Source: Holtermannia corniformis
Lineage: Eukaryota > Basidiomycota > Tremellomycetes > Holtermanniales
Assembly (NCBI GenBank): GCA_001599935.1
Contig: BCIJ01000017.1
Coordinates: 257,847-321,846 of the forward strand
DNA length: 64,000 nucleotides
Direction: 5' to 3'
The translations under genes and the position numbers were made by a program. The notes under the pieces were generated by a model. That model saw only the letters and a list, made by a program, of their open reading frames with translations. It was not told where the DNA came from and searched no databases. Numbering within the stretch: the first letter of the stretch is position 1; the number at the start of each line of letters is the position of its first letter. This document shows, piece after piece, positions 8,805-50,267 of the stretch.

Positions 8805-11800
8805 TCAATTGGCCATCACGGGTCCCATCATGGGGCTTGCAACTGGGCTGCTGTCAATCGGAGTCGATGACAGCGAGCTTGTCAGACTCTGCATGGCTTG
8901 CTCGGTCAAGGCATCGACGTGTTCGATCTCTGCCTTTGATGGAGTGCTGGCCGAGGACGAGTATGTCGAGTAATTGTGGTGAGGGTACACCACTCTCGGA
9001 GTGGTCGCCGTGGGCGTCGTCCTGCCCGACTCCGCGTAGCTGAAAGACGAAAAGTACTGGTCGAGCGAACCTGTCGAATGTGTCCGACGGGTCTCAAGAC
9101 TCGGCGCGCCACCCCAGCAAAACCTGCCAAAGGTCAGTGTGTTCATCAAGCGATCCGTGCCACTCACTGCTCGATGAAGCTGCTGTAGCTCGAGGTGCTC
9201 ATATCGTCCGACTCGCGTCTACCGTGGCGACCAAGATCCGGGCTCCAGTGGTCCAACGGTACGTCGATCGGTGACCGTGGTGAGGCGGAAGTGACAGAGC
9301 TGGTCGTGATCGAACTCGAATCGAGTGCAGGTGGAGACGAGTCGGTATCACTTTGAGTGGGCCGGGACGGTGACCATTCATTCCGCTTGAAAGTGGCCGC
9401 TGGTGAGGTCATGGCACGATGCAGCGTAGCTACGGGGCGCGCTGGTGAAGACGGTGCTTTGGTTGCGGGAGCGGGCGCCGGAGTCGACACAGTTGTCATG
9501 GGCGGCGAAGGACCTTGTACGTTGAGTACTGGCGTCGAGCTAGCTTCGGCACCCTTGCCTTTGTCGTCTGCAAACGACACTGCAAACGCATCACCTTGAC
9601 CTGGCAGGTCCAGTGACAAGTTTCGAGGCGAATAGAACTCGGTTGCGGCATGAGGATTGCGTGGCGCGAAGGAGATCATGCCTGGCTGGACTTCTGGCAG
9701 CTCAGACCGCTTGCCCACCGGTGACGTTCGGCGGCCGTTTGTGTCTTTCAGAGCACTGCCGATGTCGTACCGGTTCGCCAATGGCAGACCGATCACTGAG
9801 CCGGGCACATTGTCACCGTCTACAAGGGGCTTTGTTGTATCTCGAGGCGAGCTCTGTGGCGATAGCGATCCAGCGAGACGCTTCGAAGGCGAATTGGGCG
9901 CCAAGCGGTCCTTCCGCGGCGAAGTCAGATGATGATCGCGGTCCGCGTCGTCCACACTGAGACTGTTAAGTTTGAGTCGCAGGTCGGCGAGACGGTCTTG
10001 CTGGGAACCGCCACCAGTGACGCTCCATTGAGATGTCCTTCCACCGATTGAGCGCCCCATGCCCGGCTTTATGTTGGCATCGTTGGCGCTTGGCCGAGTT
10101 GCGGCCATGCGCGCAGGCGGCGGGACCACCTTGGCAAATGTCACCTGGTAATTGCTGCCGCCGTTCGAGTCCCAGAACTCGCGACCGTCCGTGTTGTAGC
10201 GAATACAGAGGAACAAGGTCTTCTCTTCAATCTTGGGCAACACGTCGTGCAGCTTGATCTGAAACGCAAAGCGGTCGTAGCGTCCGCCCTTGGTCGAATC
10301 CTTGAATGTCGCCGTGACTTCCGACGTTGTCGACCACCAGTCGAGTGTGAAGCGTACAGCGACCCACTTTTGAAAGTGTAAATTCTTGACTTGGACAAGA
10401 CCTCGGATCGACCTGCGATCTTCATCAAGAAAGAGCGATTCGAGGAAAATGTCGGCATCTGGTGCGTGCGAAGTGGGGAAGTTGGGAAGTCGGATCTGCA
10501 GTTGCTTGGTGTGCTCGAGCGCCTCGTCATCTGTCGATGGGAAGGGGAATTCCTCAGCCTCGCCTTCGGAAGTTGTGTAATGCTCCGTTGGGGAGCCATC
10601 TCGGCTGACCACCTGAGGCTTTTGGTCGTGCAGAAACAGCTTGACGCGCTCCAGTTGCGAGTCAAAGTGTACATACTTTGGACAACTTGGTGTCGAAGGG
10701 CATGATTTCGACTCGAACCTCGCAGGCGGCGGCTTGGCTGGTGCTGCCAAAGGCGTTCCACTCGAAGGATCGAGCGGACCTACGTACTTTAGTGCCGGCC
10801 TCAGAATCTCGCCCGACTTTTTGCGGATAAGCGTGGCGCTGTACGGCGAGAGAATGGATGCACTCTGAGGGCCCGCCTGGAGAGGCGCGACGATGCCTTC
10901 GAGGTTGAGTTTGAGCCCGTTGTCAACCTTGCGCTTGGGTTGTAGCTGCGTGGCAGGCTTGTCAGAATTCGGCCGGGTGCTGGGGACCGGGGGAGCTGGC
11001 GATGGGCGAAGCAGGGGTAGGGATGATTCGGACCGCGCTCGAGATGGATGCATACGGCGCGGGATGATGTTGCCGGATACATGGGTTGCAGGGCCAGTTG
11101 GGGTAGCAGGAGGTGAGTGGTTCGGACTTCCACTCAGTGGACTGCGCGATTGCGGTGACCTCGAGCCATCGGGGGAATTGTGCACAGAGCTGCTGGAGGA
11201 CGCAGAGTCCGGCAGCTCGGTGAAGCCAAACAGCCGAGGTCGACGACCGCGTCTCGTGGTGAGTTGCAGCGAGTCGACATGGTCCATTCGCCTTGGTGGC
11301 GAGCGGACTTCGGGCAAGACCTGCATCATGATGGGCAGTGGACTTTGCGACGAGGCATAAGTGGGCGTCGTGGCACCAAGCGATGACGATGCCTTTGACC
11401 TTGCTGGCATCGAAGCCGCAGCCATGGCCGGTAAAGCGGTATCTGACGCTGGTCGAGAGAGCGACGATGGCCCTGCAACCGGTTGTGGCGACGTCAAGCG
11501 TTCGGGCGTCGGTGGCTGAACAAAGATTGTGCTAGCTACACTTTCTGACCTAGGCGGACATCAGCCCATTGTTCTGAGCATTTGAGTTGAAGCCGACGTA
11601 CACAGACGAGCCAAGAGACCGCAGCGGGCCACTGGAGCGGCGAGCTGTGTTCCCGCCGTGCAAACGCTCCACCAGAGCTTCCTCCATCTGACCCGCTGTC
11701 GACGGCAAAGTTGCCGTGCTCGCTGCGTTGTAGGGCATCCTGTCCCAAATGCTTTGCGTCTCCTGTACCTTCAGAGTCCGGTTGCCGCCGAGCGAGTTGC

Positions 11801-12023
11801 GAATCCCTTTTGGCGAGCCAAGACTGAGCGTTGCGATGTGCGGAAGGGAGTGTGGAGTATGCAGATCAAAGGGGATCGGCGCAGCCCACGTAGTGATCGG
11901 CGTGCACTCGTCACCGTCAACGGTCGCGAGGGAGAATGGGTCGCTCTGAGGAAAAGGTGGAGACGGAGGAGGCGTGGGGAGTTGCGAGGCGACCGAGCTG
12001 ACCACGGGATCACGCTGGGTCAT
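8805..12023 (-). CDS. Glycogen-targeting regulatory subunit of protein phosphatase 1 (CBM21)
   Basis: Three exons (12023-11602, 11549-9168, 9123-8805) encode 1040 residues. The long N-terminal half is Pro/Ser-rich. A KYVHF sequence fits the RVxF docking motif for the PP1 catalytic subunit. About 70-190 residues later a CBM21 domain is visible (GLVQVKNLHFQKWVAVRFTL, then WWSTTSEVTATF, then FWDSNGGSNYQVTF). This order, RVxF then CBM21, is that of yeast Gac1/Pig1 and animal PPP1R3 proteins, which bring PP1 to glycogen and activate glycogen synthase. The C-terminal exon holds the aromatic patch QFCWGG. The start is the ATG at 12023; the frame is open upstream only to a TTG. Regulation by phosphorylation is likely from the Ser/Pro content, but that is inference. 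Confidence 0.88.
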
Positions 12024-13683
12024 GGGAATGGTTAGCTCGGATACCAATTGGTTTCAGAAGCTCGACGCCAAATGAGGGAGCGAGCGCGAACACTATTAAC
12101 GTGCGGTCACCCCGTGCTTGCCAGGACAACAGTGACGCAGCCTAGTGCGAGTCGCCCGTCGAAAAGGGAATCGTTGGGGATCAGACGGCGTCGAGTCCAG
12201 TCTAACGGAGCGAGCGAGAGCTCTACCGATGGGCGCCAGCTTCGCAACGGCAGCTGAAGGCGTAGGAGAGTCTCGACCTGCGCCGCACACGACTTGGACG
12301 CCTGGCCGACTCGCAGAAGGTATGATGAACTGGAGATGAACTGACCGAGAACAAAAAAGCTACAGCGCAGGTCGCACGCGCCGGGTACCGACGGAAGCAC
12401 GGAGCACGTCGCGGTTTTCGTCTCCACCGCAAACTCAAACGGGTGTTGGATTTGATTGACTGGCGGTCTGATGAGATCGCCGAGACGTTGCCGTGACAAC
12501 GGGGGATGTGCCGAAAGTCTTGCTGGGGCAGCCGCGCTCTCCACGGCGCTCGCTGGGGCGGGCTGACGACGCGGAAAGACACGCCCAAAACTGGCGCAAG
12601 ACGGCTCGGACGCCACTGATGATTTCATCCCTCACACAGTTGGCCCGCGTGGGCCCTGTCGGTTCCCCTGCGGCCCTGGTAGGGGCGCAGCGTCTGTGGC
12701 GGGGGAGTGGAGAGAGAGGAATCACCCAACACGGCAATCCACGCCATGGGCGGAGTGCGACGAATGCACGCGCCGTAAAGAATGTCAATTTTCGCAGAAC
12801 AACGACCGGTTCCGACGGACGATCGTGGCGGCGATCGCGACGCGTCGTTTTCGGCCAACAATTCACCAAAATGGTTTCTCAAAGCGCCGGTGAGTTGACA
12901 TCACACCACTGCTACACTCCGACCTTCAGGTGGCTGGCCGACGATCTCCCCACGGCGCCATGACAACCTTGCCGCAGCCGCGCCGGAAACCCCCGCGGCG
13001 CCACACTTTGGACGTTCCCTGAGCTATGTCTCGTACGTGACGCTTCCCGCACGTTAGGCTGCCAACTGCCGATGAGCTGCTGATTCGGCCGCAAGCTGGA
13101 GTGCACAGTACGTACAGAGCATGTCACACCTTCGATCTCTTTGTGCAGAGTTGTGGTTGCTGACAGTGTAGCATGCACAGTGACAGTTCGTACGAACAGA
13201 GCTGATAACGACATGAATGCCATGCAATGTCATCTTCATGGACAAGGGTCAGGATGTCTGATTCGATGAGAAGGAGCATATAGAGAGAACGGCGTCACAT
13301 ACAATGCACCTAGTGATCATAGCAAATACAATGACTGGAAGAGAGCGAGGCCTCTACATCGTCCCTTCGGTCGATCGTGGACTACTGTAGTTGATTAGGC
13401 CTCGACAACTATGCCGGTTAGTTCGTCTTTTGAGTAGAGCGCAGGCGAGCGGCGCGACGCGGGGACGATGGACCGGCCGACAAGAGTTTCTTGGTCGCCA
13501 TTGGTGAAGTCCTATGAGGTCCGAGCTCAGAACGAGATGAAGTTGCAATATCTTGCTTGGCAGCCGAGGCCCGGACAGACAGAACGGGCCCCGCAAGACC
13601 GATCTTTCCGCGCTTGGGAAACGGCGGGAGGATGTGCGTCGCCTTGACAGTCCGAAAGGCCGGATCGGGGCGACCTTTGGACG
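12024..13683. other. Long intergenic region without a convincing gene
   Basis: This 1.66 kb stretch lies between the start of the PP1-subunit gene and the stop of the type I gene. Several overlapping open frames occur on both strands, but none has fungal protein character or good intron borders. The last ~270 nt (13418-13683, minus) carry an open frame related to the one downstream of the second type I gene; see the finding. Confidence 0.5.
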
Positions 13684-14602
13684 CTACAAAGGGCACGAGG
13701 GCTCTTCAGGTGAGGTAGCTGTTTGCGGCGCTGCCGTGCGTGTCCAAGGAGCCGGGCAAGTTGCGAGATAATCTGTGAGCTCATCATCGGACGAGCTGTC
13801 CTCAGGCTCTGATAAATTGTTCCAAGGTCGGTCAGGCTCGACTTCTGGCTCAGTTGATGTCGTAATCGCCGGACCACTCTGCAGATGCGAGCTCGTGCCG
13901 GGAGCATCGTGATGATCCGATTCGCTGCCATGGTCTGCTGATGCAATGTGCGATGTGCACCATGCGACAACCTGGGTGATCCAGGTCTCACCGTTCTGAA
14001 TTCACTCAGCCGACAGCAGACGTGAGTGGAAAACCTACTGGGCGGAACCCTTTGAAGATTCCGCTCTCGCCTCTGACGGCCGACAGGTCCAGATTGGGAG
14101 CTACCGTCATGCCCACCTTCGTGGTGAACTCTTTGAAGTCTGCCATCGCCCCTGCCGGCTCGAGCGCTTCAAACCACTAACGAGTTGTTAAATGTTGGTC
14201 GGACCGCACGCGAATGACTTACCATGGATGAGACCAGCTCAGTGATCTTCTTGACGATGGCCATGCAGTGTTGCCGACTGGGCACAATCAAATTTTGTCC
14301 GCTCGGTGGGTGGAACGAGGCATTGTAGCTGCATCGCGTCAGTGAGTCGGGACAGGATGCAACAGCCTCATTTACATGGCCGTTACCGTCCAATTCATGG
14401 CGTATAGCTGCATGGCGTGAGATGAGCGACTGTAGTCCGCTGGCCAACTTACCAGGATCGTTGCCGAGCCGAACAGACTACTCTGCCCTGTCGGGGATTC
14501 TAGGTCTGCTTTCAGCTCATGTAGATCGAGACCATCTTGCTTGAGCACGCCCATGGAATGTAGACGCTTTACCGATTGGGCGTTCGTGAACATGTTGTTC
14601 AT
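13684..14602 (-). CDS. Island gene A, type I family (unrecognised)
   Basis: Five exons (14602-14453, 14407-14376, 14328-14223, 14176-14039, 13995-13684) encode 245 residues. The family is not recognised. It is clearly a paralogue of the gene at 18436: both start M-[FY]-T-N with VK-LH, both contain YNA[ST]FHP after the second intron and LDLSA in exon 4, and both end in an acidic tail (EPxRPWN then S-DDELTD). Exons 2, 3 and 4 are exactly 32, 106 and 138 nt in both genes, with the same phases. No signal peptide or membrane segment is evident, so an intracellular protein is likely. It is divergent from the type II gene at about 14.9 kb. The conserved open frames and splice sites argue that it is functional. 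Confidence 0.75.
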
Positions 14603-14675
14603 CGATTACGACCGTACAGGACGGCAATCTACAGTCCTGGAATTCAGATTCCGTTTGCGCCGCGCGTTGTGACTG

Positions 14676-14728
14676 GTCACATGACTTGCCCGGCTGACAG
14701 TCACATGACCACGCGCGTGCCTATATAT
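14676..14728. promoter_or_regulatory. Paired GTCACATGAC motifs and TATA box between genes A and B
   Basis: The 10-mer GTCACATGAC occurs twice, at 14676-14685 and 14700-14709, starting 24 nt apart. A TATATAT stretch follows at 14722-14728. The motif contains an E-box-like CACATG core that bHLH factors could bind. It lies in the ~275-nt region between two divergent genes. Function is inferred only from position and repetition. Confidence 0.45.
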
Positions 14729-14877
14729 CTCTGCTCTAACTTAACGGTCAAGCACTAACCTTTAGTCTCGCTTAGCATGCCTAACTGACCAAAGCAAGCG
14801 AGTTGTGATCAGCTCGCATTCCCTTGCGCTTGTGTTTTGGCATGTCTATTCAGCGGCGACAGCTAGGCAGTCGAATA

Positions 14878-15437
14878 TGATGGAACGAACACGAGCGAAA
14901 CGAAAGTCATCTACTGCATTGCCAAACTCATTATTGAGCTCAAGGCGCGGGGGGTGATCTCAAGACCAAACATGAAAAGGTTCATCCAGAGTGTCATCGC
15001 ACATCACAGCGACCCAGCGGGCCCACAGGCCATTCGTCGTCTGCGACGGCGTCGTGAGTGCACATGACATCGATTTGCGATCATATAGTCTCATTTCGCA
15101 GAACGCTTGGCCTGAAGTTCGCTACAACTACGTCACCCTCAAGACTGTAGAAAAGACCACCGCACCCGTCAATCCGCTCAATCCGCTCAGTCAGCTAGCA
15201 GGATACACCTTGAGGGCGAATGCTCCGTTAGGTGCACTGACATACTTGCGGCTGATGATTGTGCTCCAACGACAATCGGTTCTGCGAGACCCTTTAGTGA
15301 TTTCGCCGATTCTCGATTGCAACGATAACCTCTTCGGTCTACTGCATCGACTGCTGGCGAGCACCCAGAACGGTCAAGAATATGAGCGTTCATCCACCGC
15401 GCTCCCCTTGATCGCGCACGTCAGTAACACAGAGTGA
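14878..15437 (+). CDS. Island gene B, type II family, N-terminally truncated copy
   Basis: Two exons are visible. The upstream one (about 14878-15053) contains YCIAKLIIELKARGV. After an intron (15054-15101) the last exon (15102-15437, 336 nt) begins NAWPEVRY and ends at a TGA. The matching exon of gene C is also exactly 336 nt and shares AWPExRY, TTAP, GALT-LR and VLQRQ. The long N-terminal part found in gene C is missing here; only ~275 nt separate this exon from gene A. The upstream and last exons are in incompatible frames, exactly as in gene C, so the model is incomplete. It may be a decayed copy, but the intact 336-nt last exon suggests selection. Confidence 0.5.
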
Positions 15438-16149
15438 TGCATGAATGCAGCCGGTGCGCTGCTGCACTTACGGGATCTGACCTCCTGGACATGTTGCCGA
15501 GCGCTTCAGATCAGGAGGGGCGACCTGGTTATCTAACCTAGTGGATTAGGGTACGCGAGCGATCGGACATCGCCGGTTTGACCACGAAGCGCAGTATCGC
15601 CCGGAGCAGCGCGATTTTGAACGTGAGTGACATTGACCCTCGTCAAGAGCCGTTTCGCCATGGGATACTTCATCCATCTAATCGGCTACATAGTCTATAT
15701 CGTCGGCAAGTTGTACATGCACTGAACAAGCCACCGCGTGCTTGACAGACCGCAATCATCGGCATCGATTATTGGCATCAGTCAGTACGTCAACTGATTC
15801 ATGCGAAGCATCTCTGAATCGCGCGCCACGTCTCTCGACAGCCTCCTAATACACTCATAGGCCGCTCGCTTGACTCTGCCGAATCCCCTTGTTGGGGTGT
15901 TCTGGCCAAGTACTCAGCGAGGATCGTCCAAACAATGATTGGCATAACTCACTTGACTGCCAGGGGATGAGTTGACGCAAAGGTCGTTTGGCTTGCGTTG
16001 GCGTCTGCGCCCGGGAGGACTTTGACGCGCATGGCGATGGCTTGCTCGTATGATGGGAGTGAGGTGCGGCGGGAGAAGGAGGGACTGCGAGGGGTTCAAT
16101 ATGTTGCTAGTGTCAAGGTGGATCAGACTGACTCTCGGGTTGGGGTGTC
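15438..16149. other. Intergenic stretch after gene B
   Basis: I see no coding frame with recognisable character, no RNA gene and no repeat in these ~710 nt. Confidence 0.4.
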
Positions 16150-16610
16150 CATGACCATGGTCGGCGTCGTCAACGCTGCCGACGCAATGTACGAAGTCAC
16201 CGCCTCACGTTGGCGCGCGCGGTCCATAGAAGGCCTCCTTTGACATAGGATCAATCGCAATGCAGGGGTATACAACGGAGGTTGTCAAAGGAGCTAAGCG
16301 CGAGGAGCTGATCAAGGACAATCAATCAGTCGCAACTCGAAGAAGAGCTCGGCGCAATGTATTCGTTGAGCTCGTTGACTTCATCAGCTGCGCTGTTGTG
16401 AGGCATGGGTGGCCGGTCCGTACCGCTTGCCCTAAAAAGGTCAATATCGAGAGTTGCTAGGCAAGTCTCGATCCGAACATATGCTGTAGGACCGCCATCA
16501 CGGCCGAGGTCGTGACAGTTGTCAGTGATGGATATGTCACGATGCATGTGGGGTCGTTTGCGCACTGGAACACGGCAATTGACGCCTTCAACCAGCAGCC
16601 GTAATTCCGT
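16150..16610 (-). pseudogene. Decayed duplicate of the CMS1 3' end and its flank
   Basis: On the minus strand around 16595-16540 the sequence matches the last codons of CMS1 (20750-20708): both carry CGGCTxCTxGT, then GGCGTCAA and GCCGTGTTC, and the similarity continues past the CMS1 stop codon (ATGCAT, TGACAT). A second block at 16165-16250 matches 20543-20620 in the CMS1 downstream flank (CGTCGTCAACGCT on the plus strand of both). The CMS1 stop codon is altered here and no upstream CMS1 exon remains. The copy is therefore a fragment with no coding role. It shows that a segment reaching the CMS1 3' end was duplicated together with the neighbouring gene pair. Confidence 0.65.
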
Positions 16611-16701
16611 GCATGACATACATTTCTCTGTGGGACACGATACTGTATACAACCATGACCATATACCACAACTTTGCGGCCCTGTACACCTTGTCTCGAA
16701 C

Positions 16702-18186
16702 TCAATCATCTTTGCTCGGACGCAGATACAGTGGCATGCTCGTCGTCGACTGGATCTTGCTGTCCGGCGTTCGGTGCTGTGCGGCGAACAGCAAATGACA
16801 GACGCTGAAAACATTGTAGTACGCTGACATTAGTGGACTGATTTTGACAGGCTTGCGAGACCGTTGCCTTTGCAATACGGCCATATATCGTAGGTCGGTG
16901 AGTGCGCCGAGCTCTGAGTTTGCCCTGCTCATGTATTCGAGAATTTGAGCCAGCTCATTCAAACAATTGGCCGGTGCAGTGGTCTCGCCAGTGGACTTGA
17001 CATCCTTGAAGTGGTACCTAGACTCCGGCCAAGCGGACTGCACGAAGGTCAGCCGTAGCAACCTGTTCGAAGATGATACAACTCACCACGCCATCACTGA
17101 CGATGGATCGCTTGCCGCCCTCGACCGTCCTGGTCATGTTCGGCAACACTCCCGATGAAATTGGCCAACGCCGATGGCGGGATGACCCCTCTTGCCTTCA
17201 GTTCGATGACGAGTTTGGCGATGCATTGGTAGCACTCGCCAATCTTGGATGACACTTCTACCTGGTACAAATCGCCACTGGTCGTGGGTCAACAGTCAAT
17301 GCGCTCCGACCACTCCGAAACTTGGACTCACGTATGGCTCTGGCCTTTCTTGTGTAAGAAATGAGGCCCACGGAAAAGACGAGTGCGTCCCACATAGTCG
17401 TTCTTGCCGAACATGTCATTGAACATGTCAATAACCTTTTGGGTGATGACCTTGACGTCGATCTCCCGTATGGTGCGCCAAACTGGTTGAGCAGATCTTT
17501 CGACGCCCGAGTTGCGGCGTCAGCAGATTCGATAGGGTCGTGGGATAGGTCGGCGGATGCGAAAGCAGCGTCTTGCTTCAGAGCCTTGATCATCTCTATA
17601 TCGCCGTACGTGAACTCTATCCAGGGACCTCGATACCAACAAGTCTGAAATCGTGCGTTCCTTTCAATACGCGGTCGTGGTGCGTCCTTGGCGTCGTCAC
17701 GGTCATTGTTCTTGCCTTTTGATCGGATCGTGCCCAATGTTGTGAACTACTTGCCTCCGGAGATCGGTGGTTAGTCCTGGAAGTACCCGCAACGCTCTCT
17801 TTTTCTTCCAACGCGGCTTTTCTCTTCTCGTTCGCGACCATGCGTGAGGCCGCTAACAGTCCAGCAGCCACGTGATCTTCATCATCGCCATTCTCGCCAG
17901 CGAATCCGTAGGCGGTGGACACGTTCGTCTTGCGTGAAGAGTGGGAGGACCCAATGAAACCGGGTACCGAGACGAGGTTCTTGCCGTCGATTGAGCAATG
18001 CGGCGTGATTCCTTGGAAGGCTTCCTCTAAGACTTGCAGTTCGTTGGCCGTCAACGACTTCGGCGTCAGAGGTCGGCGTCGACGTACATCGATGCCGTCG
18101 ATGTACTCCGCGTCAGACGGTCTGTCGAGCGTCGAGACGGCGGCTGGGTGGAGGAGCTTGTAGGCACGCGGCCGGAACTGTTAGGC
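16702..18186 (-). CDS. Island gene C, type II family, full-length copy with unresolved frames
   Basis: The family is not recognised. From the 5' side there is an open stretch (about 18186-17640) with RRRRPLTPKSLTANELQVLE and a Lys/Glu-rich helix, then a segment containing EIDVKVITQKVIDMFNDMFG. An intron (17331-17278) leads to an exon with ECYQCIAKLVIELKARG, and after the intron 17086-17038 a 336-nt last exon (17037-16702) starts SAWPESRYHF. The ECYQC exon and the last exon do not share a frame: the former hits a TGA at 17096-17094 just before the donor. The same offset exists in gene B. No start ATG is evident, and two inner exon borders remain unclear. It is divergent from gene D. Confidence 0.45.
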
Positions 18187-18218
18187 GCAGCATGTCACGT
18201 GATGGCAGCTGTTAGGCG
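18178..18218. promoter_or_regulatory. Direct repeats flanking a CACGTG box between genes C and D
   Basis: The 10-mer CTGTTAGGCG occurs at 18178-18187 and 18209-18218. Between them lies TCACGTGA with a CACGTG E-box at 18196-18201. The element sits upstream of gene D and at the 5' side of gene C, so it may control the pair. A TATA-like CTATAAAG lies near 18390 ahead of gene D. Function is inference. Confidence 0.4.
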
Positions 18219-18435
18219 TGCTTACACATGGCTGCACCCGAACCTCCGTCGAGATGGCGCAAAATCGACCGTCTGTCGATTTGCGGAACTCCACAGGGAG
18301 TGATTCGACCGTCTGTCGGCGTCGAGTGCATCGACCGGCGCGTCGAGTGCGCGTCTTTACGTCATTCTGAGAAATCGACGCCAGCCCAACTCTATAAAGC
18401 ACCGATCTCACACGCTGACGTTCGTGTCGCCAACC

Positions 18436-19260
18436 ATGTACACAAACAGCACAGCTGTCAAACATCTGCACGCTATACATGCTCTTACCGACGCAGGACT
18501 TGACGTCAAAGTCGTGCAATCCTATGACGAATCTCTTGGGTGCTTTAGCTCCTTCCTGAGCAGAGGCACAATGATAGTGAGTACCTCCATGCCAACCTTC
18601 ACTTGTCTAACATAGCACAGAAGTTTGCGATAGTCTGGGCGGCCACGGCGGTGTAAGACGCACCTGTGCTGTTGAACAGTTCTGACGAACAGCAGCTACA
18701 ATGCGACGTTTCACCCAGCCAATCAGCAGCATTTCATATTCGAGGACTGTGAAGACATATATCCGGTGCTAGACCTCCTTGTAGAGGTGGTCGTTTGTAC
18801 TGTGAGTAGTTTCCTGTGCTGCCAACGCCATCTGATACTTCTTATGCAAGTGGTCGGGCAAGGATCCAGCGTCAGCCATACATGCCTTTTCTCGTCACTT
18901 TGCAGATGTGTACAGCGGAGAAACCCCGCCCACTCTGGATCTATCGGCCTTGCACGACACAGGTGTCGTTTTCGAACAACTGGCGTCGGTGAGTTCCCTA
19001 GCGAGTTTGATGCGTTGCCTATAACATCACAGGATCTGCAGCGGTATATCGAACGTTCCGCCGCGACGTGCAAGGCGTGCATCACGCTAGATGACCACGC
19101 GGACGGTCATGTTTCGGCAATGCAGACGCATTGGCAGGCTCGCGAGCCTGTCATCACTGCAACCGAACCTGAGCCAGAACCAGAGAGACCCTGGAATGTG
19201 GTACCCGATTCCCCTCCAAGCTCCGAGGACGAATTGACGGACTTTCTGGCGAAGCACTGA
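18436..19260 (+). CDS. Island gene D, type I family (unrecognised)
   Basis: Five exons (18436-18576, 18621-18652, 18696-18801, 18851-18988, 19033-19260) encode 214 residues. It is the paralogue of gene A: MYTNSTAVKHLHAIHAL at the start, YNATFHP in exon 3, TLDLSALHD in exon 4, and EPEPERPWN then SSEDELTDFLAKH at the end. Exons 2-4 have the same lengths as in gene A (32, 106, 138 nt), but outside the shared blocks the sequences differ widely, so the duplication is old or divergence fast. The donor of exon 2 is GTAAGA, which is required for phase agreement with gene A. The start ATG at 18436 is the first in frame. No known domain was recognised. Confidence 0.75.
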
Positions 19261-19576
19261 CATCTTGTCATCCACTGGAGCCAAGACAGTTATCGACTCG
19301 TTCGATTTACCCGCCCCGAAACGTCAGAAAACTACCCTTACAAAGACCACTGCGTCGTCTGTTGGCGGTTACATCCGTACTGGAACACCGACCCGCACAT
19401 CGACACCGCGCATCATCCCAACGGTAGCACACATTCCTCAACTACCACGACCTCGATCCCCAACTTTGCCTCGTCGATCCACTCGTTTGCGTGATGCGCC
19501 CTTCAAAACAAACGCATCAAGCGCCCGTCAAGAAAGTGCTACCACCTCTTCTCGTGGTCACAAATCTGTCGTGTGA
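19238..19576 (+). other. Open frame downstream of gene D with a basic, PKRxK-containing product
   Basis: This frame overlaps the end of gene D in another phase and encodes a Pro/Thr/Arg-rich peptide with PAPKRQK and RRSTRLRDAPFKTN. An open frame at the same place after gene A (13418-13696, minus) has FPKRGK and ends RRAARLRSTQKTN. The shared C-terminal pattern suggests a real final exon or an overlapping gene. I could not find splice sites that join it to the type I frame in both copies. Confidence 0.35.
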
Positions 19577-20707
19577 ATGCTTGGCCGTCTTAATCTGCTT
19601 TGTGAACTGTAGTTGCACGACATACTTTCACTTTCCATAGTTCGTGCCTCGAGCCAATGACTCAAGGAGCGTTCGAAGTGTGTGTGGGCTCGTCATGGTG
19701 ACTACAGGGCAGTCGGCCGAGGCCACCATCGATTGAGAAGCTTCCGCATTTGACTTGCGCTGTGGCGGAGATGTGCTACTCCCCGCGCACGTCGATCATC
19801 TTTGATCCTCAAAAGGTTGTGTGCAGCACGAGCTTGCCTCCTATGACCTTTGCAAGTCTCACTATTCCGCCATGTTTGCGTCTGGCGGTGGCTAGCAAGC
19901 GCGACCAATCCACTCGCTGGCACGACTGCGAACTCCACTCATGATATACGCTTTTCCAGTCAGAGGTATGGCAAGCGCAAGGTGATGAGCATGTAGTCAG
20001 AAAGCAACAGCGCGGCCAACGCTCCCGTCACTTCGCGTACTTGCAACCATCATGCTACGTGCCAGCTCGACGGTCTCATGGTCCTCGGTGTCTTCGTCAA
20101 TTTTGTAAAATGCCAACGCGCCCAGCAACGAGGGGGTGCTGACGATAGGCGTTGACCTATCGTTGGCGTCGACTTCGTGCGAGGTGATTTTGCAGCACGC
20201 TACTCGCTGGGTGGATACAAGGTCGATGCCGGATGCATCGATGCTGCTCGTGTTGTCTCAACTTTGGAACCATGAGCCCCTAACCGCTGTGCTAGAGCGA
20301 GGCTTGCTCCCGCCTTGAGACTGCGGGATTTCTCTCGTGTCTCCATTGCTCAATGTTATAGAGTTCTACCTATTCCCGCTCGTCATTCTATAAGGTCCCT
20401 CATAGTGCGGAACCTTGTCTTCCGCTTCGCGAGCTGGAATCTCCCGCCCAGTCAGGACAGATCTTTGGTGATCTGCCCTTCCAGCCATAGGACTAACGCC
20501 CGTTCTAGGCGAGGTCCTCGGCCACTGTTCACCGTGGTAGAACCGTCGTCAACGCTACCGATGCGGTGTACAAGACGCGGCCTGACGTCGACGTGGGTGG
20601 TCGAGGAGAACCCTCCTTTGATCTCGGTCCACCGTGCATCAGTGCACAACCGCGCCGTCAGCTGCAGCGATGGCGGTGATGTCAAATGCATATGAGGCGC
20701 GTGCGTA
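19577..20707. other. Intergenic region between gene D and CMS1
   Basis: No gene is supported in these 1.1 kb. The part from about 20524 to 20707 is the CMS1 downstream flank that recurs in decayed form at 16150-16540. Confidence 0.5.
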
Positions 20708-21923
20708 CTAGAACACGGCGATCTTGACGCCCTCGACTAGTAGCCGCTTGCGCGCTTCACCGGAAAAGACGCCTTTCCACAGCTCATCCCGGATCTCGGG
20801 GATCGTCAACAGCGAGCGGGTTTCTGCGCAATCAGCATAGCGTCTTACACAGCGCGCGTGAGAAACATACTGCTGTCTTTGTGCGATATGTCGAGCAGTA
20901 CCACTGTATCCTTGGTGATCTTGAGTGCGTCTGACGCGGCATCATTAGCAGCAGGTCGACATGGTTCACGTTGGCACTCACCCGTCTCACTGAGCAGTTT
21001 CCCTACGCGCCCCGGCGTCCCCACAGCGACAGCAACCCCCGTCTTTTCGAGGTATTTGACTTGGTCTGCCAGCTTGAAGTGCTTGGCGAACAACTTGGCC
21101 ACATCGCCCTTTCCTCCTGTTCCACCGAGGTTGAGTGGCTTGACAAGACGGACAATATCAGCGCAGCGGAGACCGGAGAGGGCGAGGATGAGAAGTTGTG
21201 GTTGGCCTTGGCCTTTGGGTTTCTTGTGAAAAGGTGGGAGGTCTGTCCGGACAGTCAGTTGTATGCGAATCAAGGGCACGCAAGCACCGGCGTTGACGTA
21301 CGGGTAGTGATGTATGTGGCGAGATCTTCGATTGCGGCGGAAGGCGGTGGCAGCAAAAATTGCTCTGTTCGTATACTCAGCCATGCGTATCGTCAACAAT
21401 GAATGATGGCAACATACCTGGGATGCGCAGATCTTGGAGCTCTACAGATGTAGCCTGTGGAAACGATTTGTGCTGAGAGTCGAGTAGGTAATTCGACGAC
21501 GCCGGTGGAGGAAACAGAGATGGCGGTAGCTCATTGTTCGCCAAAGCTGCTTTCTACATTTGGCGTTGCTTAGCTCATCCATAGTGGTTACTGTGAGAAG
21601 CGTCAACGCACCCTGGCCTTGCGCTCCTTCTCCTTTTCCTTTTTCCGTCGCTTCTTCTCCAGCTCGGCATCGTCGTCTCCCGCTTTCCGCTTCTTGCCGG
21701 CCGGCTGCGAATCACCGTCTACCGCTTCGTCGTCATCGTCGACCACCTCATCCGGCTCGAACGCATCCTCCTCGCCCTCTAGCACGGGCTCTGGACCCTC
21801 CTCATCGTTATTCTCGACGTCTGATGCGAGCATTGTCGGGTCATAGTCGAGCCCATCGTCGAGGTCGTCTCCCCCTCCGGGTGACGCACGGGCAAACTGC
21901 TTCTTGGGGACAGCGGCAGGCAT
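20708..21923 (-). CDS. CMS1: CMS1-like ribosomal small-subunit processing factor
   Basis: Six exons (21923-21612, 21553-21418, 21364-21302, 21242-20982, 20930-20871, 20823-20708) encode 315 residues. The first ~100 residues are acidic then Lys/Glu-rich. The core has the Cms1 family blocks LLILALSGLRCADIVRL, VAKLFAKHFKLADQV and VAVGTPGRVGKLL, which resemble a degenerate DEAD-box helicase fold, and the end reads SLLTIPEIRDELWKG. Yeast Cms1 associates with 90S pre-ribosomes. I start at the ATG at 21923 (MPAAVPKKQ); the open frame extends upstream but with no family character. A decayed copy of its last ~40 codons lies at 16.6 kb. Confidence 0.87.
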
Positions 21924-22235
21924 TGTGGGCAGCCTGCGACCACACTCGGCTGCAACTTTTGTACGACTAGCTTCATGTGCTCTCCGGAGACCATCGGAAT
22001 CCGAACCCCTCCGTCGGGATTGTCGGATGTCCGGTACCCCGATTGGCGTCGTAGTCTTCATGATGGCATTGTCGACTTTGAGGCGCAGCCGCAGTAAGCG
22101 GTGCAGCCCTGGAAGTGATCCTGTACTTGCCATCTCATCAGTGTTACCAACTGCTCCGAGTGCCCTCTGCTGTGTCACTCGCACACCCACCGACACTCCC
22201 TTGACGTCGTCCGTTTCAGCATGGCAGCCAACTGA

Positions 22236-24498
<2,263 letters not shown>

Positions 24499-45242: not shown

Positions 45243-45358
45243 CGTGACTTGCTGCAAATGTCAAACTGCATGGATGCACCTTTGGCCACCCGGAAAACGT
45301 CGTGTCACGTGGGCAAGAATGGCAAAAACTCAAACCGCCTGTGCGGGTGGCAAAAGAT

Positions 45359-45441
45359 GTCGTCAGCCTGGATCGAACAGGCGACCGCACGATATCGTAA
45401 CTGAACTTCAGTCGCGCGCTCTCCCACTGAGCTATGACGAC
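45359..45441 (-). tRNA. tRNA-Phe (anticodon GAA) with a short intron
   Basis: Read on the minus strand the cloverleaf is complete: acceptor stem GTCGTCA/TGACGAC (7 bp), D-arm GCTC-AGTGGGA-GAGC, anticodon stem CGCGA/TCGTG around a loop CTGAAG, variable loop of 5, and T-arm GCCTG-TTCGATC-CAGGC. The anticodon GAA is followed one base later by a ~12-nt intron (TTCAGTTACGAT), the canonical intron position. A TTTT terminator lies 4 nt past the 3' end (45355-45352). CCA is not encoded, as usual for eukaryotes. It sits between the SPB4 and RSE1 genes. Confidence 0.92.
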
Positions 45442-45605: not shown

Positions 45606-48600
45606 CTAGAAAGCACTTGTAGTCCGCATCGACTCGAGCTTCTTGAGTACCTCTCCCACACTCCGGTCCAGATCACCTGCGATCGACTGCTGGCGCGGAT
45701 AAGGCAGCGATGTGAATGCCTCGCACATCTATGCGACGTCAGCACTGATGAGTCTCTTGTGGGTATACTCACATCGCCGTCCACGACGTGGTTCACTGGG
45801 GCGTAGTACCCTCGGTACGCGAGGTGGTCGCGGCCCAGGAGACTAGGGTTCTCCGACCGCATGTGCTGCGATGGTTAATACGATGCAGTGGCAGGGACGT
45901 GTTCACGCACCATCTCCAAAGTCGTCATAAACTCGACATCCTCGTTTGTTCCAAACGGCACGAGCGCACCGACAGCGCCCGCGAGCGTGGTGTACGCAAG
46001 CACATCCTTGCCACCGGCGACCAACGCGACCTTGTTGATCGATGTGACAATGCCTCCGACGTGATAGTGAGCAAGCAGCGTCGTCTTGTGAGCCGCTCCT
46101 TGCAAGTACGGCTTGTCGTGCAGGATACCTGCGCCCGTCGGATCGTCGTCGACAGACTTTGAGATGTTGGTCGCCAGTCGGTTGATGAAGATGTTGCCAA
46201 ACTTGTCACCCGAGACTACCGTCTCGTAGTCGACCATTGTTGTGCAGGTGATCCATCGCGGTTGCGAGTCATCGGCAAAGATGAGCAGCTGGCGGTTCGG
46301 CTGGGTCTTGTAGGCGACGTAAAAGTTTGACTCTTGCATGTCCCCGACGATGATGCGAGAGCCTTGCGTGTTGAGCGTGACGATTGCAGTTGGGAAGCTC
46401 TGCATGGTGATTAGCGATGCGCCAAGGTAGGCCTGGAACACGCACGTTGTTCTCAACCTTTCGCAACAGTTGCCGCTTGCCGAGCTCGTACAGCCGCAAC
46501 GCCTTGCCAACGCCAGCCAACAGCATGCCCTTGAACCCAAGCAGTGCCAACGGTACTTCGTCCACCTCGGTCTGGGATCGTCAGCCATGATGGCGGTTGC
46601 CAAGCAATGGTCCCACCTTGTTCTGGAAGACCAACTGTCGACCGTTCTCGCTAAACCCATACACCCTCAGATATGCTTTTGCAACCTTGCGCGGTGACAG
46701 TGACGTCTCGACAGCCGTTCCCACTACCAAGAGTGGCTCGCCGCCTCTTGACTCAAAGTAGACGACGGCAAGGGAGAAAGCTGCCTCATTCTCATCCAGA
46801 TCAAGCGTTTGCAAGCTCTCCGGCTTGGCACTGTCAGCAAGAGGCACACAGACAACTCGAACACCTACCTGCAGAGGGTCTATCACCCGCACGACCGATC
46901 CCCAATGACCGGCCGGAGCACGAGGTCGCCCAAACTCGGCCGAAGGCAGCTCCAAGACTGCAGTGTCGAATCTCGCACCGCTCGCTTGCTGCAGCAACGT
47001 CAGTGTCGCTATCCTGCACCGTGCATGCGAAACACCCACCTTCTCTTCAATGATCCGATTCTGAGCCGTGGCGCCATAAACTCGGTGATCCGACTCGATC
47101 GAGTAGAAGATGGGGCTGGTCGGATGTTGCACAAACTTGCGCGGCGTGTAATCCAACGGCAGCTTTTCTTGCTTGAGCTTGTCACCGAGTTTGGGTACTT
47201 GGAAGATCCTGTGGCCGTGAGCTGTGACCTGCAGCGTCGGTACAGACACGTACCGCAAGGTGTTACCGGCAATACCAATCAGACCATCCGGGCACATGGC
47301 AGCTGTGAACGACGACGCATACTCGAGCCCGTCGTAGATCAACGGAGTGCACTGGAGCAGGTCCTGGTAGGTATAGAGAAGCCATGATCGGCTCGAGAGT
47401 GCCATGACGGATGTCGCGCCCTTGACGAGCGTGCGCACGAGCTTGGCGGGCTTTGACCCGAGGAACCTGCAGGCGTGAGCCAAAGCGGTCGATGTAGGAG
47501 GATGTTACGTACCGAAGACGAGTGTCCGAGAGCGAACCGTCGACCGGGTCAATCACTGTGCGAAGCAAGACACCGTTGGTCAAGCCAATGTTGAGGAACA
47601 TGGTCGGTCGGTTCTTGTCGATGCTGGTGTCAAAGATCTCGGCGATGCAGATCGACGCCGGTGGCGCAGTCAGAGCCTGCGGCAAGGTCAGCCTCGGGCC
47701 CCGAAGGTCGACGGAACTCACTTGAAGAGACAGTGTCGTCAAAGTGGTGTCAATCTCGAGCGAGATGATGTGCACCGTTTGATCATCGCACCCGACCGCC
47801 TGTCACTCGTCAGTCACGCAAGTTGCTGCACGCACTCCACATACAAGGAACGGCGTTCTTTGCCTACCCTCCGGCACCTCACCGATACTCAAGCACATGG
47901 CGTTGCCCGGCAACGCCTTTCTGTCCTGATATTCGGATAGTACGCCGTCCGAGTCGAGCTCAAAGTAGACGAGCTCGGCCGTACTGAGCGCAATAACTAC
48001 CTGACGCTTGTTGGTAGTGGCAGCAACAATGGTCCGCCCTGGCGGGACCGGCCACTCATTCACGTTCTTGTCGGCAAGAATGTGACGGATCCCAAAAGGA
48101 TGGACTTGCAGGATCCCGGCATCGCCGATTTGTTGCACTGCTAGGGTCGGACCGGACGAAAGGAAACCCGTGTCGCTGACTTCTTCGATCGACTCGCCGA
48201 TCGAGAGCACGAGGGTACCGTTTGGGAACGACAAGACGATATACGAGTCATACTCGTCTGTAACCGTCAGCCCAGACGCATCACCACCAGATGACACGGA
48301 CCCGCTTCAGCAATCTTGAGCGTCCACACGGCATTCGGCACACCCGGCAAGCCCGAGCTGACGAGCTCCGAGACTTCCAACCCATGCTTGAGACTCCTGA
48401 ATGAACTGCGTGCGCCGCGACCACACGCAGCATAGATCTGCGGCGTGTCCGATGCCGTGCCAAGCAAGTTGACGACCTTGGCGTCGATGATTGGGTCGAG
48501 CGAGGTCAGGGTGTCGACGAGGAGCAAGTTGTCGAGTGGCCGCGGGTTGAAAAAGGCAAACGGGAGGGGCTCGAGCGTGTTGCCGTTGTCAGGGTAGTCT

Positions 48601-50267
48601 GCCGATGACCATTCTTGCTCGTCGTCGTCATCGCCGAGCTTTTGGAATTGGTACAGGTTTCTGCGGTGGTCAGCATCGACGACGATTGGATAGTATGCAA
48701 CGCACTGATCGCTAAACTCGCTGGCCACGAGCAGGTAGCCAGCCTTTAGGATACACAGGCTCGATGCGACGGGGACCGTGTCAAAGTACTTGATCTTGAG
48801 CGCCTGCACGTCCTCGCCCTCGTGGTCGATCGTGACCTTGTACAAATCACCTTCCTCTGATTGCAGCAGGAAGAAGAATGCGCCCTGGGGACATTAGTCA
48901 CAGCTCCGAGGTTAGTCACGACTACCGACCCTGATCTTGTGCATGACACCAGCCACAATGATGAGGCCTCTTGGGGGTTGCTGCGCCGACGCCAACGGGT
49001 TCCGTCGACGCGGGATTGGCACACGGTGAGCGGGCGCATCCATGTGCTTCCAAATGATGTGGTTCTCTGCGCAGACGAGGACACCGGAAGGCCCTTCGAA
49101 GCGGTCCGACGTAGCGTTCTGACCGCCCGGAACTGCGATACGTCAGCAAACCACTTGCAGACGTTGCGGGACAAACCTTGCACGAGGAAGTTTGCTCGTG
49201 GATCGGTCGGCTCGCTCCATTTCCGCACAACGTGGTTGAGACCCAAGTCGAGTTCGTAGAATGTAAGCATCTGTGCGGTCGTCAGCCCGCAAGGTGAAAG
49301 CGTTGCGATCGACGCGCACCTTTTCCGTCCGTTCGTACGCCTCGCCCGTTGGGTCGTTGTCCGACTCTGAATAGTCTACCTCCAAGCAAGCATAGAGTGG
49401 GTTGTCGTAGCCCTGCGAATTGTCAGTCGCAGTCGAGAGCCTCGTACGCAGACTTGCCTGGTCTACACCGACGATCGCCGAGATGATTGCATGCTGCTTG
49501 TGCGCCTCGAGCGGTGAGGATGGGAACAGCTTGCCCTCGGCATTCCGGTTGAGAATGTACACCAGCTTTGACCTGCGTGCGTTAGTGGCAAACGCGCAAT
49601 CAACGGCACGAAGCGTACTTTTCAAGCCTGAGACATGGTCAGCTCTAGCTCGCACCGTGCTTATCCCACACTCACGCTCCAATCATGCAACTCCGCCCCT
49701 TGGGATCCACACCCAGCCACTGACCTGGCACCATTCGTCTGTGGATCGAGTTAGGACCACCGGTTGTGCGCCATAGGTGTGCACGCACCGACTGCCCGAT
49801 TTGCCATAAACCTCTTGGAAGAGCGATTGCAAGTGTGGTGTTGGCTCGATCAAGAACTCGATGATTGATAGCCGTCCAGAGTCGCTGGCGATGATGATGT
49901 AGTCTATACACGCTTAGTGCTTGCGATGCTGAGTATGTGACGAACCCTTGGCCATGCCGGCCAGCCTGAAGCCCTGGATCGCTCGAACGGTGCCAAACGC
50001 CTACATGCGCGTGAGCGAGCCAACTCGACAGCTTTTATACCTACGAACCTCTGTCGAGCACAACGTTTCGACTACAAGTATCAGCCTGAATCTCACATGA
50101 CAACGACACGACTCACGCCTCCCCGTCTGGTTGTTCAGCCGCATAACCTCGAGCCTCGTCCCACCACGGCAAGCCAAGATCTCCTGACCCTTGACGCCCG
50201 AGAACGAGCCTACGATCGCGAGCGTGATGGCCGTCGGCGGTTGGAGCGTGAGGTTGAGAAGATGCAT
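45606..50267 (-). CDS. RSE1: Splicing factor SF3b subunit 3 (RSE1/SF3B3)
   Basis: Twenty-three exons can be followed from [20 protein letters not shown] at 50267 to the stop at 45606, about 1,200 residues. The protein is the WD40-type scaffold of the U2 snRNP SF3b complex. Matches to the family occur throughout: [99 protein letters not shown] and [18 protein letters not shown], ending [20 protein letters not shown]. One exon is only 9 nt (49627-49619). The intron 49457-49413 begins GCAAGT (GC-AG); the nearby GT would break the frame. It is divergent from IST3, another spliceosome gene. Confidence 0.95.

Follow-up and report, generated by a model that had tools for sequence, protein, structure and literature searches.

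The question raised by this locus is why a divergent pair of genes from two families occurs twice, in mirror image, within one short segment of the genome of Holtermannia corniformis, and whether the products of such a pair act together. The segment lies on contig BCIJ01000017.1 (C17) of assembly GCA_001599935.1 (20.2 Mb in 55 contigs; one genome of the species was examined), inside the 64,000-nucleotide stretch that was analysed and that we call the window (C17:257847-321846). Four genes follow one another there in the order A (type I, minus strand), B (type II, plus), C (type II, minus), and D (type I, plus), i.e. two divergent pairs, I-II and II-I, with the orientations that the initial annotation of this DNA had given them. 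We find that its central claim, a divergent two-gene unit that is present twice with one copy inverted, is supported by gene structure, by homology within each family, and by constraint on the coding sequence. As for function, our favored reading is a tentative one: a divergent, lineage-restricted pair, with an acidic type I and a basic type II product, that might act together as a two-part transcription regulator. The coding features are as follows.

13684..14602, minus strand: gene A, type I; exons 14602-14453, 14407-14376, 14328-14223, 14176-14039, and 13995-13684; 245 aa, acidic
18436..19260, plus strand: gene D, type I; exons 18436-18576, 18621-18652, 18696-18801, 18851-18988, and 19033-19260; 214 aa, acidic
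14903..15053, plus strand: gene B, type II, penultimate coding stretch; conserved core 14915-14959; left limit approximate
15102..15437, plus strand: gene B, type II, last exon; 336 nt with the stop, after a 48-nt GTGAGT..CAG intron (15054-15101)
16702..17037, minus strand: gene C, type II, last exon; 336 nt with the stop, after a 49-nt GTGAGT..CAG intron (17086-17038)
17087..17277, minus strand: gene C, type II, penultimate coding stretch; core 17225-17181; the preceding GTGAGT..CAG intron starts at 17331, with its acceptor at 17278 or 17262
17332..18180, minus strand: possible 5' part of C; coding-like codon usage in three successive frames; joins not clean

Genes A and D are intact open reading frames (ORFs) after splicing, each with five exons and four GT..AG introns of 43-49 nt in common phases (0/2/0/0), and exons 2-4 measure exactly 32, 106, and 138 nt in both. 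Their proteins are identical at 73 of 218 positions (33%; BLASTP, E = 1e-37), which bears out the earlier description of A and D as one strongly diverged family. The splice search, which allowed GT..AG introns of 34-130 nt, preferred an extra intron in exon 5 of A (13991-13938) and found a downstream ATG of D (18571) marginally better (24.1 vs 23.5); we keep the five-exon models because the homology between A and D favors them. Both proteins are strongly acidic (net charge -16 for A and -19 for D) and share an acidic-hydrophobic motif, DELTD[FY]L, near the end: A carries SSSDDELTDYLA near its C-terminal end, and D ends with PPSSEDELTDFLAKH. Among the 36,955 residues of the six-frame window ORFs of at least 100 aa, the pattern D[DE]?EL.D[FWY] is confined to A and D, at their ends or close to them.

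Further ORFs, with KR[QG]K and PRR..RLR motifs, stand at the same relative place after each type I gene (13418-13705, minus; 19238-19576, plus). The similarity between them is not significant, with 143 of 2000 shuffles as good and 17 of 588 other window ORFs scoring higher, and a type I C-terminal tail reaching 19576 was dropped for lack of significant similarity to the stretch after A. The right-hand limit at 19576 in the initial annotation is the end of this further ORF.

The last exons of B and C are identical at 47 of 104 positions (45%; E = 8e-29), as expected of the second family that had been proposed, and their equal length of 336 nt conceals a one-residue gap on each side. A second conserved block, CIAKL[IV]IELKARGVI, forms the two cores listed above, and the joined type II pieces, as far as modeled, have a net charge of +7 in both B and C. 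Upstream, the genes are less regular. No in-frame ATG lies ahead of the first conserved stretch of B, and the upstream part of C (17282-18186) changes frame: between 18180 and 17330, codon usage points to frame 1 at about 18160-17780, to frame 0 at about 17740-17480 (unevenly), and to frame 2 at 17480-17330. Well-supported splice models were obtained for A and D only, while the full-length path of C combines a high codon score with several weak donors. The gene limits first assigned to A and D hold, and the 5' limits of B (no ATG) and C (frame changes, weak donors) are not confirmed. Close to the last intron, B (15000-15053) and C (17140-17087, minus) align without gaps up to the intron, and the frame seems to change at the same place in both, which may reflect a weak intron or a +1 shift. 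With regard to a shared +1 shift, the codon signal of the first frame is already lost ahead of the supposed site (differences by codon position 9/10/8); a weak intron may be present instead, in C from the splice search and in B by inspection only.

Divergence between the copies is deep and uneven across codon positions. The proportion of synonymous differences (pS) is 0.81 against a nonsynonymous proportion (pN) of 0.43-0.44, in the alignment of A with D as well as in that of the B and C last exons; for the penultimate stretch of B and C, which is short, the values are 0.67 and 0.33. When these alignments are read in either of the other frames, the gap is gone or nearly so, and at fourfold-degenerate sites the two pairs agree in 17 of 60 positions, i.e. 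at about the random level. Judged from these alignments, with silent sites saturated and protein change restrained, the genes of both families are constrained and show purifying selection. Such a combination argues that the genes are old and that selection maintained them over much of their history. A codon-usage model built from 14 stretches of other window ORFs likewise supports A and the exons of B and C.

The age of the pairs can be set against that of a second duplicated element. The gene CMS1, intact to the right of D where it ends at 20708, is present a second time as a broken copy of its 3' end in the interval separating B from C.

16154..16601, minus strand: X, broken copy of the CMS1 3' end and downstream flank, between B and C; RLLVEGV, then a 2-nt loss and no stop
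20531..20746, minus strand: Y, matching stretch at the intact CMS1; last codons, stop (20710-20708), and 3' flank
20708..22240, minus strand: CMS1 gene, right-hand neighbor; matched to relatives from 21523 down to 20711; 5' limit inferred from the ORF

X contains an unmatched stretch of about 260 bp, and its flank homology with Y stops about 180 bp from the CMS1 stop. In two aligned blocks, X and Y are identical at 115 of 150 positions, which differs sharply from the 17 of 60 fourfold sites of the gene pairs (Fisher P about 1e-10). Since X and Y are far less diverged than the gene pairs, a single tandem event that copied the entire unit does not account for both. From these comparisons, the gene pairs look much older than the duplication of X, even allowing for the choice of blocks and for constrained CMS1 codons, and it would follow either that X is a later local event or that two already distinct versions were joined.

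Each pair is separated by a space that presumably serves as a divergent promoter.

14603..14902, no strand: A-B space, presumed divergent promoter; two exact GTCACATGAC sites
18181..18435, no strand: C-D space, presumed divergent promoter; two exact TCGACCGTCTGTCG sites

The GTCACATGAC sites form a direct repeat 24 nt apart (14676-14709), the TCGACCGTCTGTCG sites one 40 nt apart (18265-18318), and in both cases they are the only exact ones in the window. With 1-2 mismatches, neither pattern is enriched in the window relative to dinucleotide shuffles, so only their pairing inside the presumed promoters stands out.

Profile and library searches gave no significant match and leave standing the earlier statement that none of the domains was recognizable. 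Pfam, NCBIfam, and PHROGs returned no family for the proteins and pieces searched, at the limits used. Against PDB sequences, none of four queries (profiles of type I and of the type II last exon, gene D by itself, and the 5' part of C) scored better than E = 0.66. A housekeeping or otherwise known domain was rejected on these four resources at the limits used. A cyclin box of the PCL type, suggested by eye in type II, was also rejected: Pfam gives no match, the cyclin profile score of 9.9 is within shuffled controls and below at least 15 of 60 column-shuffled ones, and pairwise comparison with the cyclin frames of this genome reaches z = 1.2 at best (22 of 200 shuffles as good). A predicted structure for the last exon of type II proved unusable (mean pLDDT 37).

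Searches of a set of 5.8 billion proteins confirmed none of 3274 type I candidates at E <= 0.01, in a search that carried no control, and none of 30 candidates for the type II last exon, a query that reaches only proteins of about 61-194 aa. A second, longer query, in which type II was fused to a CMS1 stretch serving as control, yielded 4419 candidates and 112 matches, all 112 with a CMS1 domain and none for type II; against these 112 proteins, type II alone reached E = 0.67 at best. The method requires shared 5-residue words, and fast-evolving homologues may escape it. Most named relatives of the CMS1 control are basidiomycetes, the best-scoring ones in Cryptococcus and Kwoniella; among the matches listed, the best relative is 64% identical over the control stretch, with up to 69% among Cryptococcus and Kwoniella, a pattern that most likely points to a tremellomycete. 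As the best of these listed matches is only 64% identical, no close relative of the species was seen in the protein set. Viral contigs gave 16 and 25 pattern matches, none of them confirmed, and phage DNA gave no match. Within the genome itself, all five matches to D and both matches to the last exon of C are the genes described here, these counts being lower bounds. At the level of titles and the opening parts of abstracts, the literature searched describes no such gene pair.

The surroundings of the locus include one further gene on the left.

9167..11560, minus strand: CBM21 (carbohydrate-binding) ORF, left-hand neighbor

The GC content of the locus (13684-19260) is 54.2%, below the value in each of the 474 equally long segments that lie in the 64 kb without overlapping the locus, and it rises on the left to 58.8% and on the right to 55.0% and then 56.6%. 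No RNA family was found in 11500-23000 up to E = 0.1 and no tandem repeat in 11000-24000. Elsewhere in the window lie ORFs of the RSE1/DDB1/CPSF1 family with beta-propeller and CPSF_A domains (46584-47504 and 48270-48893, minus), and a tRNA-like gene called by ARAGORN (45358-45441, minus), with a two-base anticodon and opposite a 188-codon open frame, which is probably spurious.

Mating type was the first of the functions suggested for the locus, and in the usual basidiomycete sense this is contradicted by the positions of the known mating-type genes. The divergent homeodomain (HD) pair of this genome, HD1/HD2, lies on another contig (C2:916.7-919.9 kb), away from the four genes; the HD2 homeodomain scores above the cut-off (E = 1.2e-5, across an intron, with one typed residue in the query at that intron), and HD1 matches Homeobox_KN below it (E = 0.0067). 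Two further weak homeobox matches lie on C4 and C37. All six matches to STE3 (PF02076) are on contig C1 and none is at the four-gene locus; pheromone genes were not searched for. These STE3-like matches stand at two places (1866556-1867508 and 649900-653421), and two of the six read through one stop, possibly because of introns. No homeodomain was matched in A, D, or the pieces of B and C at a limit of E = 1, nor in type II at a limit of E = 10. Specifically, a usual mating-type locus is ruled out here by HD1/HD2 on C2, STE3 on C1, and the lack of a homeodomain match in the four genes. The unproven 5' part of C, compared with HD1 and two HD2 pieces, is also within shuffles (17 of 300 as good).

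The layout is nevertheless that of an HD locus (HD1/HD2, SXI1/SXI2), i.e. a compact divergent pair of two families with strong divergence between versions, and the products of the HD system work as a pair. The HD2 on C2 ends with MDELMDWGL, and its DELMDWGL resembles the DELTD[FY]L of type I. By contrast, the four genes have no recognized homeodomain, and the HD1 on C2 is a 325-aa open frame without introns, whereas the type I genes have introns. In the multi-pair HD loci of mushrooms, such as the Coprinopsis A locus, several divergent pairs of old paralogous versions lie side by side; the arrangement here is similar, but the Coprinopsis pairs encode homeodomain proteins and the four genes, as far as tested, do not. 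A different parallel is offered by the pheromone/receptor (P/R) locus of Kwoniella and Cryptococcus, for which inversions between versions, 3' fragments of neighbor genes beside intact copies, and lower GC are described (PMC12510652). The four-gene locus has an inversion, a 3' fragment of its neighbor CMS1, and low GC, and differs in having no STE3 match; the parallel in these three traits is suggestive, not proof.

Joint action of the type I and type II products is suggested by the divergent layout together with the opposite charge. In the paired-regulator reading that we favor, the two genes of a pair would be expressed together from their shared divergent promoter; type I would be a transcription co-activator with DELTD[FY]L as its C-terminal acidic activation motif, as the likeness to the end of HD2 hints; type II, encoded next to it and divergently, would be its partner; and the two versions would already have differed when a rearrangement placed the CMS1 fragment between the pairs. 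Several observations weigh against this. No domain, fold, or homologue was found to support any molecular function, and the resemblance to an activation motif is a few residues long and was noticed post hoc. Comparisons of the A-D and type II proteins with HD1 and two HD2 pieces (excluding the WF.NRR exon) stay within shuffles (best, 49 of 300). Codon usage supports D weakly. The identity of X and Y comes from the aligning blocks only, part of one of them CMS1 coding, which favors a high value, and with a different scoring scheme the larger of the two blocks measures 126 nt at 70%. Lastly, any complete model of a type II gene has to use weak splice sites, and B, C, or both may therefore be decaying. 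Taken further, type I would be intact and B and C pseudogenes of a formerly functional pair, a relic to which the missing ATG of B, the frame changes of C, and the weak splice sites would all belong. Against such decay, the comparison of B with C shows purifying selection at a silent divergence that has reached saturation, and the GTGAGT..CAG introns before both last exons are intact; the selection could have ended recently or stem from one of the two lineages, and we consider a relic doubtful.

The simplest rival to a paired regulator is an ancient duplication of the ordinary kind, in which a fast-evolving, lineage-restricted pair was copied, one copy was inverted, and the paralogues diverged, so that adjacency is historical and implies no joint function. 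Homology, order, and saturation are all accounted for in this way, and divergent layouts are common by chance among fungal genes. A single tandem event would, however, make X-Y and the pairs equally old; 115 of 150 against 17 of 60 calls for a second event, and both families have been kept together in both copies. We see this duplication as a serious possibility that falls short of an even chance, and old paralogues without joint function are about as likely as the paired regulator. More elaborate is a history in which two once-allelic haplotypes of a balanced recognition locus, mutually inverted, were joined by unequal exchange, with a 3' piece of CMS1 left where they met. Such an exchange would produce the order CBM21, A/B, X with the CMS1 tail, C/D, Y, CMS1; the pairs are more diverged than the flanks, and low GC, inversions, and neighbor 3' fragments match what is described for the P/R locus (PMC12510652). 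On the other hand, own-genome searches of the one genome found no allelic copy on another contig, X may be an independent small duplication, and the flank homology ends early; we judge this history unlikely. The fuller claim built on it, that the locus would be a third self-recognition system, with neither homeodomain nor receptor, in which once-allelic inverted versions were fused with the CMS1 fragment at the join to give a strain with both specificities, seems to us improbable. A toxin-antidote or meiotic-drive pair, also raised at the outset, would fit two orphan, divergent, fast-evolving genes in general terms and nothing more specific; Pfam, NCBIfam, and PHROGs matched no family of any kind, two old versions of such a pair in one genome would be unusual, and we regard it as very improbable.

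A divergent two-gene module that exists in deeply diverged versions is, in basidiomycetes, typical of HD mating-type loci. With that layout and comparable traces of rearrangement, in two families that show neither homeodomain nor receptor, the four genes form a small, delimited locus (about 6 kb) at which to ask whether fungi have further recognition or paired-regulator systems outside the mating-type locus. If the explanation is an ordinary one, they would still be a clean case of two orphan families retained together as a unit through duplication and inversion.

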